From Elusimicrobiota bacterium (GTDB lineage Bacteria; Elusimicrobiota; Elusimicrobia; F11), in contig JAKLIS010000025.1 of assembly GCA_022709485.1 (NCBI GenBank), positions 1-10,435 of the forward strand: DNA of 10,435 bases, written 5' to 3'. Every line of letters starts with the position of its first letter. Position 1 is the stretch's first letter. Under the pieces are notes generated by a model that ran no database searches, was not told where the DNA came from, and worked only from the letters and a program-made list of their open reading frames with translations. The position numbers were made by a program, and so were the translations under genes. Shown piece by piece: positions 3,955 to 10,435 of the stretch.

Positions 3955-4218
3955 ATGATAATTAGAGTGAGAGCCATTCCAAATGCCAAACATAGCGAAG
4001 TCATGGGCCGGGTGGGATCTGTCGTCCGGGTCCGCGTGGCGGCCCCCGCGGTGGACGGCAAAGCGAACGAGGAATTAATTGAATTTTTAGCGGAATTTTT
4101 TGGGGTGAAGCCCAGAGATGTCGCGATTCTTCAGGGCGAAAAAGGAAAAGAAAAAACCGTTGAAATTGAAGGCCGTCCTGAACACGAACTTGAAGAAATA
4201 ATGGACGCCATCCCGTAA
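3955..4218 (+). CDS. yggU: DUF167/YggU family protein
   Basis: This small protein of 87 residues belongs to the DUF167 (YggU) family, whose molecular function is not established. The family signature is clear: IRVRAIPNAKHSEV at the N-terminus, VRVRVAAPAVDGKANEELIEFLAEFFGV in the middle, and a GEKGKEKTVEIEG strand near the end. The start lies 9 bases after proC, with a GAGG Shine-Dalgarno-like element at the end of proC. The TAA stop directly abuts a REP-like palindrome. YggU next to YggS and ProC is a common conserved grouping. Confidence 0.93.
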   Translation: MIIRVRAIPNAKHSEVMGRVGSVVRVRVAAPAVDGKANEELIEFLAEFFGVKPRDVAILQGEKGKEKTVEIEGRPEHELEEIMDAIP

Positions 4219-4283
4219 GGGGTCAAGTCGCACCATGACTCACTTTTTGAGTCAAAAAATGAGTCATGGCGCGACTTGACCCC
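4219..4283. repeat. REP-like near-perfect palindrome, copy 1
   Basis: The 32-base left arm (4219-4250) and 32-base right arm (4252-4283) are reverse complements with two mismatches, around a single central G. The arms begin with GGGGTCAAGTCGC and contain CATGACTCA. A second copy of the family lies at 10251-10309. The form (an extragenic hairpin with GGGG at the foot) is that of REP elements mobilised in trans by RAYT (TnpA-REP) transposases; that link is inference, since no such transposase is visible here. There is no U-tract, so it is not a classical terminator, but the hairpin could modulate the mRNA between yggU and rpoZ. Confidence 0.95.
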
Positions 4284-4313
4284 TTCACCCCTTCATTCAA
4301 ATAAGGAGAAAAG

Positions 4314-5201: not shown

Positions 5202-5879
5202 ATGGTCAGGCCCAAACCAAAAAAGCGATCCCTCAACGTTTTAATTACCGCCGGTCCCACCCGTGAATATTTAGATCCCGTCAGATTTCTTTCCAATGAT
5301 TCCTCCGGTCGCATGGGTTTTGAGGTCTCGGCCGCTTTTCAAAAAACCAAAAATTACGTGATGTTGATTCATGGCCCCACGCCATTGGTTCCTCCCCGTG
5401 GAGTCCGTCATTTTGCTGTTACTTCCGCCCGGGACATGTTTTCCGCTGTTAAAAAATTCCTTCCCAAAGCGGATGTTTTTATCGCCACCGCGGCCGTCTC
5501 TGATTGGCGGTTTTCCAAAACGCATGTTCAAAAACTAAAAAAAGGGAACCTTTCAAAACTGTCCGTGTCTCTGGAAAAAAACCCGGATATTTTGGCGTGG
5601 GCGGGGAAGTGGAAAGGAAATCATGCCCGGCCGCTTCTGGTGGGATTTGCGCTTGAAACGGGGAACGTCCAAAGAGAGGCGCTCAAAAAACTTTCTCAAA
5701 AAAAATTGGATCTGATTATTGGAAACACCATTCAATCTTTTGGCGGGGAAAAAATTAAACCAATCTGGATTGAAACCGGTCCATCCGTTCATCCTTTGCC
5801 CCTCATGAGCAAAAAACGATTGGCGGAAAAAATTTGCCAATGGGTTTCTAAAAAGACCTCGGAGCGAAAAGATGTCTGA
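5202..5879 (+). CDS. coaB: Phosphopantothenate-cysteine ligase (stand-alone CoaB)
   Basis: This 225-residue protein is the ligase half of CoaBC. It activates 4'-phosphopantothenate with a nucleotide (CTP in most bacteria) and joins it to cysteine, supplying the CoaC substrate. Motifs: NVLITAGPTREYLDPVRFL at residues 12-30, SNDSSGRMG, the ATAAVSDWR segment (the usual AAVADYR), QKLKKG equivalent to the KIKK lysine loop, LEKNPDILA, and VGFALETGN. The start codon is 7 bases after the coaC stop in a different frame, with no strong Shine-Dalgarno, so coupled translation is likely. The end overlaps the next gene by 8 bases. Residues look intact, so this is probably a functional split rather than a decayed fusion. 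Confidence 0.93.
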   Translation: MVRPKPKKRSLNVLITAGPTREYLDPVRFLSNDSSGRMGFEVSAAFQKTKNYVMLIHGPTPLVPPRGVRHFAVTSARDMFSAVKKFLPKADVFIATAAVSDWRFSKTHVQKLKKGNLSKLSVSLEKNPDILAWAGKWKGNHARPLLVGFALETGNVQREALKKLSQKKLDLIIGNTIQSFGGEKIKPIWIETGPSVHPLPLMSKKRLAEKICQWVSKKTSERKDV

Positions 5880-6792
5880 AGAATTAAAAACACTGCTTGA
5901 GTCTCTCAAAGCCATCACCCTGGAAAACGATGGCGAGATTCCCTATTGGGGCGAGAAAATTCATTTAAAAGCACCCGCCGTTGGGTCTTTAGGGTTCCCA
6001 ATCCCCAACTCAGTTGAAGGATTGGGAAACCCTAAAGACCCAACGGCTGATACTTCTTCAATTGGCAAATCCCGATTTGGAAAGGAAGTCGGGGCCGTGC
6101 CGGTCTGTTCCCGAAATCCTTCAACGGAGTTGGGGAGGAGGGGGCAGACCGGCACGGCCCCGCATCCTTCAAATTCGGAAATTCAAGATAAAACCTCTGC
6201 CCTTGAGATATTGCGGAAAAATGAAATTGGCGATTGCCTTCGGTGCGCGTTGGGACAAACGCGCAAGAAACTTGTGTTTGGCGTCGGAAATCCCGCGGCC
6301 AGAGTGATGTTTGTGGGAGAAGGGCCCGGGTTTGAAGAAGATCGGCAGGGGGAACCTTTTGTTGGGAAGGCCGGCCAGCTGTTGGACAAGATTTTGGCCG
6401 CCATTCAATTGGACCGCCAGAAAGTGTATATCGCCAATATCGTCAAGTGTCATCCCATGGTGGACCCCAAAAAACCGGAGATGAGGGGAAACGATCGTCC
6501 GCCCACCCCGGAAGAAATGGCGCCCTGCCTTTCTTTCCTTAAAAAACAAATCGATATTATTAATCCGGTGATCATTGTGACCTTGGGCGCCACCGCCGCC
6601 AAAGCTCTATTGAACACTTTCGAAGGGATAACCCGAATCCGCGGGAAACTCCGAGATGTGAATATTGTGGATGGAAAACCGCCTTACAAAGTTTTGCCCA
6701 CTTATCACCCCGCCGCTCTTTTAAGAAACCCCGACCTTAAAAAAGACGTTTGGGAAGACATGAAACTTTTAAGACAAATATTAAGCCAATGA
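5872..6792 (+). CDS. Family 4 (4Fe-4S) uracil-DNA glycosylase with palindrome-derived N-terminal extension
   Basis: The 306-residue product is a family 4 uracil-DNA glycosylase (UDGa type), which removes uracil from DNA to start base-excision repair. The conserved domain begins near residue 111: C122-x2-C125, the active-site motif VMFVGEGPGFEEDRQGEPFVGKAG (residues about 145-168), C193 in NIVKCHP, C219, and YHPAALLRNP near the end. The four cysteines fit the 4Fe-4S cluster; the C193 to C219 spacing carries an extra PEMRGNDRPP-type loop. Family members are usually about 190-230 residues, and the excess is N-terminal. Residues about 36-59 and 73-97 are encoded by two long palindromes, so this extension is unlikely to be part of the fold. 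The ATG overlaps coaB by 8 bases, behind a GGAG sequence. Confidence 0.95.
   Translation: MSEELKTLLESLKAITLENDGEIPYWGEKIHLKAPAVGSLGFPIPNSVEGLGNPKDPTADTSSIGKSRFGKEVGAVPVCSRNPSTELGRRGQTGTAPHPSNSEIQDKTSALEILRKNEIGDCLRCALGQTRKKLVFGVGNPAARVMFVGEGPGFEEDRQGEPFVGKAGQLLDKILAAIQLDRQKVYIANIVKCHPMVDPKKPEMRGNDRPPTPEEMAPCLSFLKKQIDIINPVIIVTLGATAAKALLNTFEGITRIRGKLRDVNIVDGKPPYKVLPTYHPAALLRNPDLKKDVWEDMKLLRQILSQ
5977..6047. repeat. In-frame palindromic insert 1 (in the uracil-DNA glycosylase gene)
   Basis: Left arm 5977-6004 and right arm 6019-6047 are reverse complements apart from a single-base bulge (TT against TTT). They enclose a 14-base loop that can itself pair (CAACT with AGTTG), making the 71 bases almost one continuous hairpin. 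It encodes residues about 36-59 without a stop and lies before the conserved domain. Its centre (6003-6023) is shared with insert 2. I see no obvious target duplication. Confidence 0.93.
6052..6089. repeat. Weak palindrome between inserts 1 and 2
   Basis: CAAATC (6066-6071) pairs with GATTTG (6074-6079) across a 2-base loop, and an outer ACTTC/GAAGT pair lies at 6052-6056 and 6085-6089. It fills the gap between inserts 1 and 2 almost exactly, so it may be a worn third member, but the pairing is short enough to be chance. Confidence 0.4.
6090..6162. repeat. In-frame palindromic insert 2 (in the uracil-DNA glycosylase gene)
   Basis: An 18-base perfect inverted repeat (6090-6107 with 6145-6162; arm starts CGGGGCCGTGCC) encloses about 37 bases. 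The loop holds AATCCTTCAACGGAGTTGG (6115-6133), the reverse complement, with one change, of the centre of insert 1. The arms of the two inserts are unrelated. It encodes residues about 73-97 without a stop. Confidence 0.93.
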
Positions 6793-9029
6793 TTTTGGAA
6801 GTCGCCTGCCCCATTCCGGTTTTTAAAAATTTCGATTATTTGCCGCCTCCCGAGTTCTCACCCCTCAATCCTTCCGAAATTATCGGTCGCCGCGTGGAAA
6901 TTTCTTTCGGATTTAAGAAAGAGGTGGGGATTGTCACGCGAATTAAAGAGACCTCCGATTTCCCCATCGAAAAATTAAAACCCGTGGTTCAGTTTTTGGA
7001 CAACGATTCACTTTTGTCAGAAGAAATGATGGCTTTGGGGCATTGGCTTTCCGAACGGTATGTGTGTTCCTTCGGGGAAGCGCTCTTTTTTATGCTCCCG
7101 CCGGGACGCGGGAATCCGCAGTCTTTTGAAGAACCCGAATCCGACATCGCTTATCACGACGATTATTTGTCTCAACTGGGGACATCCCCAACCTTGACAA
7201 AGGATCAACAAACCGCCGTTGACATGATTCATCGCGCCATTTTTAATTATCCAGAAGAACAATCGAATGAGTCCGACGGGGAGGGGAGTTATCCAACTCC
7301 TTCGAGACCTCGTTTCGGGGAGATACGAAATAATGTTAGAGGTCGAGCGGAGTTGGATAACTCCCCTCCCCGCGGGTTCCCTCTCTCATTTTTGCTATTG
7401 GGCGCGGCCGCCACCGGAAAAACCGAAGTGTATTTGGAGGCCATCAAAGATGTGCTCTCCCAAGGGAAAACCGCGCTCTATCTCGTCCCTGAAATCAGTT
7501 TGGCCCTTCAGCTTAGCGAGGTTCTCAAAAATAGATTCGGAGACAAAAACGTTTTGCATTGGAGAAGCGACCAAGGCCAAAAAAGCCGTGTCGATAATTG
7601 GCTTCGAATCAAAAATGGGGAGTTCTCCATCATTATCGGATCGCGCGCCACCGTGTTGGCGCCTCTCCCCCATTTGGGACTCATCATCGTTGACGAGGAA
7701 CATGATTCCGCTTATAAAGAAGACAGAAAACCCCGGTTCAACGCCAAAGACGTGGCCCTCGAACGGGCGAGACGGGCCGGAGCGGTGGCCGTCTTCGGAA
7801 GCGCGACCCCCAGTCTGGAAATTATGAAAACCGCGGTAGACGGGAAAATTAACCTCATCGAACTTCATAGCCGCGCCATCCCCGCCGCCGAACCCAAGAT
7901 AAAATTGGTGGATTTAAAAACGGAAAAACCCCGCAAGTCCTTTTCCCCGACGCTGGAGAAGGCCATCAATGAAAGATCAAAACTGGGGGAGCAGTCCATT
8001 TTATTTTTGAACCGGCGCGGCTTCTTTCGGTACGCGATGTGCCCCAAATGCGATTGGATGGCCAAGTGCCCCGTTTGTTCCATCGGATTGGTGATGCACA
8101 AAGGGGGGAAGTCTTCCCCCTCCATGGCTTCACAATGGAGGGGGTTGGGGGAGGAAAAAATTCCCCCTCCTACCTCCCCCATTGAGAAGCCATGGGGGAG
8201 AAAGAAAAAAACAGGGAACCGGGAACTTGGAAATGTTTTTCTCAAGTGTCACTACTGCGGACGCACTTCTTCTCTTCCCCCGGCTTGCCCGCAATGCGGG
8301 GCCAAAAAAATAATCCAAGGCGGATTTGGGACCCAGCGTCTCACCAAAGAGCTGGAGGAAATTTTTCCTTGGGCCCGGATTTTAAGGTGGGATCACGATT
8401 CCGCCCTCCGCCGGGGAGAGCCTGAAAAAATCCTCCAAAGTTTTGAAGCCGGGGAGGGGGATATTCTTGTGGGGACGGTGATGGTGGCCCATGGATTCAA
8501 TTTTCCAAAAGTGACTTTGGTGGGGGTGATGGATGCGGATTTAAATCTGCATATTCCGGATTTTCGGGCCGCCGAACGAACTTTTCAAACGATTACCCAA
8601 GTGGCGGGCCGGGCCGGCCGGGCGATGGTTTCTGGAGAAGTCATTATTCAAACGCGAAATAAAGATCACTATTCAATCCAATTCGCGGAAAAAATGGATT
8701 ACAAAGGATTTGCGGCCGAAGAGCTTAAATTCCGCGAGGCGCTTTTCTATCCGCCCTTCAGCCACTTAATTGAGGTCACCACTCAATCCGGCAATTTAAA
8801 AAAAGCTGAAAAGGATATAGAGGGACTCGTTAAAAAAATCTCAGATGGGAATTCTTCCGTTGGAATTCTGGGCCCCACTCCGGCCAAACGGACCGGGAAA
8901 AAAGGAGCCAAGCGACTAATGGTGTTGCTCAAAATTCCCAATGACCGGTTTTTCGATTTTTTGTCCTTTTTTCGTCAAATGGTCGCGCCCCACCCGCAGA
9001 ACTTTCTCATCAACGTCGACCCGCAGTAA
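6789..9029 (+). CDS. priA: Primosomal protein N' (PriA replication-restart helicase) with two palindromic inserts
   Basis: This 746-residue protein is PriA, the 3'-to-5' superfamily 2 helicase that reloads the replisome at stalled forks. Order: N-terminal 3'-DNA-binding domain (CPIPVFKNFDYLPP), Walker A GAAATGKT (residues 205-212, usually GVTGSGKT), YLVPEISL, DEEH at 302-305, GSATPS, eight zinc-binding cysteines (C418, C421, C427, C430, C487, C490, C500, C503), then ADLNLHIPDFRAAERTF and QVAGRAGR. The helicase segment usually reading MIAKGHDFP is MVAHGFNFP. ATG 6789 overlaps the upstream TGA (ATGA), indicating translational coupling; a longer frame from 6750 adds nothing family-like. Two extra segments, residues about 163-195 and 442-472, coincide with palindromic DNA. 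Both sit in linkers: before Walker A, and between the two zinc-binding halves. All key residues remain, so the enzyme is probably active. Confidence 0.96.
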   Translation: MILEVACPIPVFKNFDYLPPPEFSPLNPSEIIGRRVEISFGFKKEVGIVTRIKETSDFPIEKLKPVVQFLDNDSLLSEEMMALGHWLSERYVCSFGEALFFMLPPGRGNPQSFEEPESDIAYHDDYLSQLGTSPTLTKDQQTAVDMIHRAIFNYPEEQSNESDGEGSYPTPSRPRFGEIRNNVRGRAELDNSPPRGFPLSFLLLGAAATGKTEVYLEAIKDVLSQGKTALYLVPEISLALQLSEVLKNRFGDKNVLHWRSDQGQKSRVDNWLRIKNGEFSIIIGSRATVLAPLPHLGLIIVDEEHDSAYKEDRKPRFNAKDVALERARRAGAVAVFGSATPSLEIMKTAVDGKINLIELHSRAIPAAEPKIKLVDLKTEKPRKSFSPTLEKAINERSKLGEQSILFLNRRGFFRYAMCPKCDWMAKCPVCSIGLVMHKGGKSSPSMASQWRGLGEEKIPPPTSPIEKPWGRKKKTGNRELGNVFLKCHYCGRTSSLPPACPQCGAKKIIQGGFGTQRLTKELEEIFPWARILRWDHDSALRRGEPEKILQSFEAGEGDILVGTVMVAHGFNFPKVTLVGVMDADLNLHIPDFRAAERTFQTITQVAGRAGRAMVSGEVIIQTRNKDHYSIQFAEKMDYKGFAAEELKFREALFYPPFSHLIEVTTQSGNLKKAEKDIEGLVKKISDGNSSVGILGPTPAKRTGKKGAKRLMVLLKIPNDRFFDFLSFFRQMVAPHPQNFLINVDPQ
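7277..7372. repeat. In-frame palindromic insert 3 (in priA, before Walker A)
   Basis: A 24-base perfect inverted repeat (7277-7300 with 7349-7372; arm starts CGGGGAGGGGAGTTATCC) encloses a loop that pairs further: TCGA..CCTC with GAGGTCGA, then TTTCG with CGAAA. The hairpin is 96 bases, exactly 32 codons, and open in the priA frame. It shares CGGAGTTGG with the loop of insert 2. Confidence 0.95.
8114..8202. repeat. In-frame imperfect palindromic insert 4 (in priA zinc domain)
   Basis: The stretch from 8114 to 8156 pairs with 8161-8202, with about 27 of 33 aligned positions matching in the inner part, including ATGGCTTC and CAATGG words. The loop is A-rich. It is followed at 8214-8227 by a heptamer pair GGGAACC GGGAACT. 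Together these account for roughly the 42 residues by which the C430-C487 spacing exceeds the ~15 of E. coli PriA. Confidence 0.85.
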
Positions 9030-10235: not shown

Positions 10236-10250
10236 GCCTTATGCGAAGAA

Positions 10251-10309
10251 GGGGTCAAGTCGCTACATGACTCATTTTTGGAACAAAAATGAGTCATGTA
10301 GCGACTTGA
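10251..10309. repeat. REP-like perfect palindrome, copy 2
   Basis: A 26-base perfect inverted repeat (10255-10280 with 10284-10309) around a 3-base loop GAA. It begins GGGGTCAAGTCGC and contains CATGACTCA, like copy 1 at 4219-4283. The left foot keeps GGGG, but the expected CCCC after the right arm is missing and replaced by TAATC, where the IS110-type sequence begins. Confidence 0.96.
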
Positions 10310-10393: not shown

Positions 10394-10435
10394 ATGAAAT
10401 TATACGGAGCAATCGACCTACATTCAAACAATTGT
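10394..10435 (+). CDS. IS110-family transposase (DEDD), first 14 codons
   Basis: The visible peptide MKLYGAIDLHSNNC is the typical N-terminus of IS110-family transposases, where the aspartate in IDLH (D8) is the first residue of the DEDD RuvC-like catalytic set. These enzymes are dedicated recombinases that, in studied members, are guided by an element-encoded bridge RNA. A strong Shine-Dalgarno AAGGAGG (10378-10384) lies 9 bases before the ATG, supporting this start. The rest of the gene, including the Tnp_20 domain with its serine, lies past the right edge. With only 14 residues seen, family is likely but subgroup (IS110 or IS1111) cannot be told. Confidence 0.75.
   Translation, partial: MKLYGAIDLHSNNC

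Follow-up and report, generated by a model that had tools for sequence, protein, structure and literature searches.

Palindromic DNA inside or beside working genes has been described in several systems. The CGTC and GTAG families of REPs are defined by a tag plus a stem of 5-13 bp; in the families described in PMC3733652, the hairpins also occur within genes, many of which serve DNA synthesis and repair; dimers or opposite-orientation pairs are frequent, one gene sometimes has two insertions, and the stems of heterodimers can differ. The TIRs of the RAYT/TIRYT systems are long palindromes, and the motif GGGGWSAS is common to some TIRs of the RAYT-like genes covered there (PMC3733652). The families of Rickettsia palindromic elements (RPEs) are dispersed elements of ~150 bp, each with a conserved peptide; in the examples given in PMC10969869, such palindromic DNA lies in frame in unrelated genes and is tolerated as extra peptide. 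Template switching, in the cases presented in PMC8604942, homogenises the arms of inverted repeats and inverts the spacer, so that coding DNA comes to hold flipped spacers between perfect arms, and it can make perfect stems in a single event (as outlined in PMC8794818). Finally, the mitochondria of Nematomorpha carry long perfect inverted repeats within working protein genes, both arms of which encode conserved protein regions in the genes discussed in PMC6649704.

The locus compared here with these systems lies in a window of 10,435 nucleotides (the whole stretch of DNA that was analysed), which is contig 168 of a draft genome of 531 contigs and 2.10 Mb that is 85% complete; further copies of the elements described below may be missing from it. 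A gene of the uracil-DNA glycosylase (UDG) superfamily, encoding 306 aa, runs on the plus strand from 5872 to 6792 (Pfam PF03167, E 1.7e-40) and hosts two palindromic inserts, both in frame in the N-terminal linker, and the reading frame is open through both. Insert 1 (5977-6047) has perfect outer arms of 20 bp (5977-5996 and 6028-6047, 20/20 paired) around an inner stem and tip. Insert 2 (6090-6162) has perfect outer arms of 18 bp (6090-6107 and 6145-6162, 18/18 paired) that are unrelated to those of insert 1. Folded as single-stranded DNA, the two segments reach -35.6 kcal/mol (z -11.9) and -37.6 kcal/mol (z -7.8), respectively, and 0 of 200 shuffles folds as well in either case; both inserts are strong hairpins, and the preliminary description, which had their arms as self-complementary, stands on this point. 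Elsewhere in the window, Flavoprotein (PF02441, 4538-5194) and DFP (PF04127, 5202-5879) occupy two adjacent ORFs, not one fused coaBC gene, and a heptamer array (GTGCCTA/GTGCCTG) is seen at 2098-2216 and 2271-2300, its inverted remnant lying ~55 bases on. At 10394-10435, an ORF start reading MKLYGAIDLHSNN is cut by the contig end; judging from its sequence, we take it to be typical of IS110-type transposases.

A search for inverted pairs shows what the two UDG inserts share. Positions 6002-6023 on the plus strand match the reverse complement of 6115-6136, on the minus strand, at 21 of 22 bases (95%), a slightly wider pair than the 20 of 21 (6003-6023 against 6135-6115) first reported and confirmed here; the second, inverted copy is also found by comparing insert with insert. 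A chance match is ruled out: the best 22-base match between the inserts is 21, while the best in 300 shuffles of one insert is 11-16. Outside this core the likeness is soon lost. The arms compare at z -0.2, as against z 7.5 for what they enclose, where 28 of 37 aligned positions match, so that the claim of a kept centre between differing arms is borne out. When the inner TTCCC/GGGAA stem is counted with the arms, 64 of 2000 dinucleotide shuffles score as high as the real arms; for the outer arms without it, 399 of 2000 do so. The part shared by the UDG inserts thus seems, from this comparison, to extend a few bases past the 22-mer and into that stem. The shared centre is 22 nt long, possibly some 28-37 nt if the inner stem is included. 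The core can be read in both orientations, as had been proposed from the peptides NPSTELG and PNSVEGL, and the sense and antisense frames prove correct on checking. In insert 1, one antisense frame reads AVGSLGFPNPSTELGIGNPKDPTA against the sense AVGSLGFPIPNSVEGLGNPKDPTA, and insert 2 behaves alike; related peptides from both strands are a consequence of the core being flipped and of the palindrome keeping phase with the codons.

Searches for further copies of the UDG core give a consistent picture. A 19-base pattern of the core matches exactly at the two UDG places only in the 85%-complete genome. With a 16-base pattern and up to 3 mismatches, there are 47 matches in the genome including both copies, compared with 39 for the reversed control. 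Allowing one mismatch in 17 bases, the core is present in 0 of 59 relatives, and the only one of the 60 genomes with a match is the window's own. A species-genome collection of 257 billion bases, which may omit the records closest to the window's genome, contains 8 exact matches against ~7.5 expected by our own arithmetic when 18 bases are specified; not one of these sits inside a palindrome with arms of at least 12. The core was also seen in two viral contigs; in one there is no inverted repeat around it, and in the other it is flanked by an inverted pair of 10 bases at a distance of 112 bases, which we take as chance. The covariance model built from both UDG inserts (R1) finds these two alone; since R1 models the UDG arms too, the pattern with up to 3 mismatches is the better test for copies whose arms differ. 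Used as a DNA query, the 191 bp insert region gives, apart from itself, a single weak match to its own genome (21 bases, E 0.35) and a further one to each of three family genomes (20-28 bases, E 0.03-0.26), without a palindrome in any case, and the windows read at six outside loci with weak DNA matches (L131, L133, L137, L138, L139 and L142) are likewise not palindromic. Together, the searches of the genome, the relatives and the collection and the search with R1 lead us to reject a dispersed family. The preliminary description had suggested that the core defines a family, and had itself named a core occurring only twice as what would speak against this; the core is found as two exact copies in a genome of which ~15% is missing, and with up to one mismatch in none of the 59 relatives, and so we drop the claim. 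We regard the UDG core as private to this gene, with two copies, for which local duplication in inverted orientation is the simplest explanation.

The neighbouring gene, however, leads to a second group of palindromes, for which the proposed design, in which the core is fixed and its self-complementary arms are exchangeable, does hold: what fails for the UDG core stands for a separate element, which we call the AATAATGTT element. The priA gene (6789-9029, plus strand; Pfam PF17764, PF00270 and PF18074) carries two further palindromic inserts, and the first of them (7277-7372, plus strand) is a copy of this element with perfect arms of 24 bp. Its core (7301-7348, plus strand) is common to contigs C1, C508 and C62 and falls within a match at 7294-7352 to the covariance model R3 (E 1.2e-12, from a model built with this copy). 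The core is asymmetric, roughly GCGAC.TTGAGGCGCC.TTTCAATT...AATAATGTT.GGCGCCGAG.GGAGCG. Contig C1 (locus L067, with the same coordinates) holds an inverted copy at C1:7860-7961 and a second at C1:7983-8088, the latter found by pattern search; C508 holds copies at 5810-5905 and 5957-6055 (L238:1500-1594 and 1646-1744); and in C62 a copy at C62:15 (L109:1-61) is truncated at the contig end. From their sequences, we take the genes downstream of the C1, C508 and C62 copies to be thiD, rpe and pcrA/uvrD. In this genome the group thus has six members, five of them full copies and one truncated. At two of the three other places (C1 and C508) the copies are paired, with starts 123 and 147 bases apart, in opposite orientation in C1 and the same way round in C508.

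Because R1, R2 and R3 were built from copies that they find, the E-values for those copies are not independent. The C508 pair is a different case: it was found by R2, a model of three copies that includes neither member (E 0.034 and 0.17), and both members proved to be palindromes with arms paired at 18/18 and 16/16, which gives the group independent support. The truncated C62 copy was found independently by pattern, by blastn (E 0.0097) and by R2 (E 0.056). R3, a model of five cores, recovers its five copies, and C62 is absent from its matches. In the 59 relatives, R3 gives two weak matches only (one in G054 and one in G030, each with E 0.036 in a search of 60 genomes), which we take as chance; its filters were stricter, with at most 89 candidates scored per genome, and weak relatives may be missed. 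There is, then, no convincing match to the AATAATGTT element in the 59 relatives. A census of 708,021 bases, in which the best of overlapping hits was kept, contains 38 palindromes with arms of at least 15; keeping the best hit hides both UDG palindromes behind their cross-match. Five of the 38 bear the heptamer-array label (GTGCCTA/GTGCCTG), four of them outside the window.

Within the AATAATGTT group, the arms of the five full copies pair at 24/24, 19/19, 20/21, 18/18 and 16/16 (97 of 98 positions), with arm ends set by a repeat finder that favours perfectly paired stretches. The stretches between the arms share 31-47 matches over 59-68 positions (~50-75% identity). For the ten pairs of full copies, core similarity ranges from z 1.2 to 9.4 against shuffles and is at least 4.0 in seven, whereas arm similarity for the same pairs is z 1.3 at most. 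The weak core pairs all involve priA (z 1.2 with C1a, 1.5 with C508a and 2.5 with C508b). Ungapped comparison of arms, over 21 pairs that include the UDG arms, gives 7-11 matches in up to 20 positions each. A power control with 84 trials per level indicates how these scores are to be read: arms changed by 25% or 35% score above z 2.2 in 100% and 88% of trials, and above z 1.3 in 100% and 93% (80% at a change of 45%), and at 45%, the level of the weak priA pairs, arm relatedness is detectable in only 57% of trials. The low arm scores are therefore informative for the better-conserved pairs; arm unrelatedness is firm for these and less so for the priA pairs. A relationship between the UDG and AATAATGTT cores was considered and rejected, as the ten cross pairs have core z between -0.9 and 1.9; between the groups, the highest arm z, taken as the larger of two orientations, is 2.2 (the second UDG insert with C508a). 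An architecture of fixed centre and changing arms is thus real in this genome, though the proposed UDG family is not.

The second priA insert (8112-8205) has 45 nt arms that are 80% paired and lies in the loop where a sister-genus genome, G002, has a different palindrome. The priA frame is open through both inserts, so that four palindromes in two genes keep frame with no stop. Alignments with the PriA proteins of G002 and of another sister genus, G001, show a gap at the first insert (7277-7372), and that with G001 also at the second; the alignment with the G002 UDG has a gap over most of the linker. The G001 UDG linker (L038:1611-1800) contains an imperfect palindrome of its own, with 25 nt arms and a score of 28 compared with a best of 21 in 500 shuffles. 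It resembles another G001 palindrome, L091:15977-16071, with an extra stretch inside, and was omitted by the repeat finder at its settings. The palindrome in the G002 PriA loop (L101:11633-11703) has 28 nt arms, 86% paired, and encodes VIPAEAGIQ; viewed by eye, it looks like a CGTC-type REP dimer. Its spacer also happens to hold AATAATGTT. Across the sister genera, the UDG linker and the PriA loop look like palindrome hotspots.

How do these elements compare with the described classes? With RPEs they share palindromic inserts that keep frame, here in UDG and PriA, and that are absent from the G002 UDG and from the G001 and G002 PriA. They differ in that the UDG core exists as two copies at one locus with outer arms that are not conserved, and no conserved peptide in dispersed copies is found: PNSVEGL and NPSTELG are encoded by the opposite strands of a single core with two copies. 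For CGTC REPs, the criteria are an unpaired CGTC tag, a stem of 8-9 bp, a loop of 4-5 nt and a CCA tail; scoring the tag and the arm length, we find no CGTC in the 12-base flanks of the seven elements (the two UDG inserts and the five full AATAATGTT copies), and perfect arms of 16-24 bp. Neither GTAG nor CTAC occurs in the same flanks. Where REP families have their tag and stem, the elements here keep the centre. In another place, L112:497-626, a CGTC-type palindrome appears by eye to be nested in a second one, with perfect arms of 52 bp. Direct target repeats of the MITE type, sought at lengths of 3-9 bases and no more than 3 bases from the ends, are found in none of the seven elements. Rfam gives 33 matches in the window up to E 1, all below the gathering score (32 to miRNA models and one to a bicoid 3'-UTR model), and with such sub-threshold hairpin matches only, we set aside a known RNA family. 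Whereas both arms encode conserved protein regions in Nematomorpha, here the palindromes are extra linker sequence. In a literature search of open-licence papers, which is weak evidence of novelty, we found no description of a palindrome with conserved centre and variable arms.

The RAYT/TIRYT comparison needs the genome's own transposase. The single Y1_Tnp (RAYT-type) match is at C112:5833-6165 (E 3.4e-11), and the palindrome just upstream of it belongs not to the UDG or AATAATGTT inserts but to a third, intergenic family, AAGGGGTCAAGTCGC, with members at 4217-4285 and 10248-10309 of the window. The AAGGGGTCAAGTCGC palindromes of the window thus look like repeats of that transposase. The UDG and AATAATGTT elements, in contrast, are not beside a detected transposase gene and have arms unrelated among copies, although their G4-rich outer ends recall GGGGWSAS. 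A G4 or C4 run lies within the outer 10 nt of five of the seven arms, against 0.66 expected (p 7e-5, for a motif chosen post hoc).

The copies and their cores, the pairing of the arms, their unrelatedness and the lack of the inserts in some sister genera are observed; a template-switch origin for the arms, a direction of copying and neutrality of the inserts are what we infer. Most likely, the elements are palindromes like REPs or RPEs, those in UDG having settled in frame in a linker that tolerates insertions; descent would concern the core alone, and template switching would make the arms, or restore their match, on site, a reading that we consider evenly balanced between right and wrong. 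Replication would fold back at the core and use either flank as a template for writing the opposite one; the resulting arms would be single-copy and pair along their full length, and the core could be flipped too. Inserts in loops that keep the frame would be tolerated as neutral linkers, and others would be lost. Counting against template switching, the spacer inversions published in the cases of PMC8604942 involve 2-5 substitutions, not 20-60 bases. Those cases also differ in having no dispersed conserved core. A variant that we think rather unlikely is a mobile palindrome indifferent to its stem: only an asymmetric core of ~60 nt would be copied and would gain a perfect palindrome through an inverted copy of 16-24 bp of adjacent target, so that each copy has private arms.

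The G4/C4 runs in five of the seven arms point to a recognised end over purely host-derived arms, and are compatible with insertion into palindromes already present or with a transposase recognising the foot. If small core elements had inserted into the loops of existing palindromes, for example of the RAYT/TIRYT TIR type, the arms would differ as the targets differ. The runs near the outer ends would fit, as GGGGWSAS is found in some of the RAYT-like TIRs treated in PMC3733652 and GGGGTCAC in the C1a arm matches that motif exactly; nesting also seems to exist, by eye at L112:497-626 and in the G001 UDG palindrome as compared with L091:15977-16071. However, the arms of the UDG and AATAATGTT groups have no match of more than 14 bases elsewhere in 710 kb of their own genome, unlike the genome's RAYT-type palindrome, and ready-made palindromes within genes should be rare enough to make three in-gene cases improbable, and so we regard insertion of this kind as rather unlikely. 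Mobilisation of the hairpins in trans by the single detected RAYT-type transposase, reading the fold and the tip or foot and not the stem sequence, could draw on the Y1_Tnp match and on the AAGGGGTCAAGTCGC palindromes that precede it and recur in the window. Yet the arms of the AAGGGGTCAAGTCGC family are conserved, and inspection by eye shows no UDG core and no AATAATGTT core in it; the inserts, too, lack flanking direct repeats and adjacent GTAG or CGTC tags; we see a slender chance for it.

An ordinary old palindromic repeat, with core and arms of one descent and arms that drifted with compensatory changes, would account for the weak alignment of the UDG arms when the inner TTCCC stem is included (64 of 2000) and for a likeness reaching slightly past the 22-mer. 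The UDG outer arms themselves are at random level (399 of 2000; z -0.2), and in the pairs C1a-C508a, C1a-C508b and C508a-C508b the cores match at 45/60, 47/67 and 46/67 while the arms score z 0.4, 0.0 and 0.3, when arms of like divergence would nearly always exceed z 1.3 (100% at 25% change, 93% at 35%). Arm pairing at 97 of 98 positions, despite unrelated arms and diverged cores, is likewise not readily explained by slow descent of whole palindromes, and we find such descent decidedly unlikely. Perfect arms are also typical of fold-back chimeras, and the draft assembly is fragmented; even so, four palindromes in two genes keep frame without a stop and diverged forms of the same core lie on separate contigs, which makes an assembly or amplification artefact very improbable.

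A conserved stem or tag is what usually identifies a family of bacterial palindromes. Repeat finders would split or miss elements whose centre stays the same while the arms differ, and such elements would be evidence that perfect complementarity may arise locally instead of by inheritance. The elements also draw attention to loops of repair and replication proteins, two of which are seen here, where palindromes are taken up repeatedly in sister genera.
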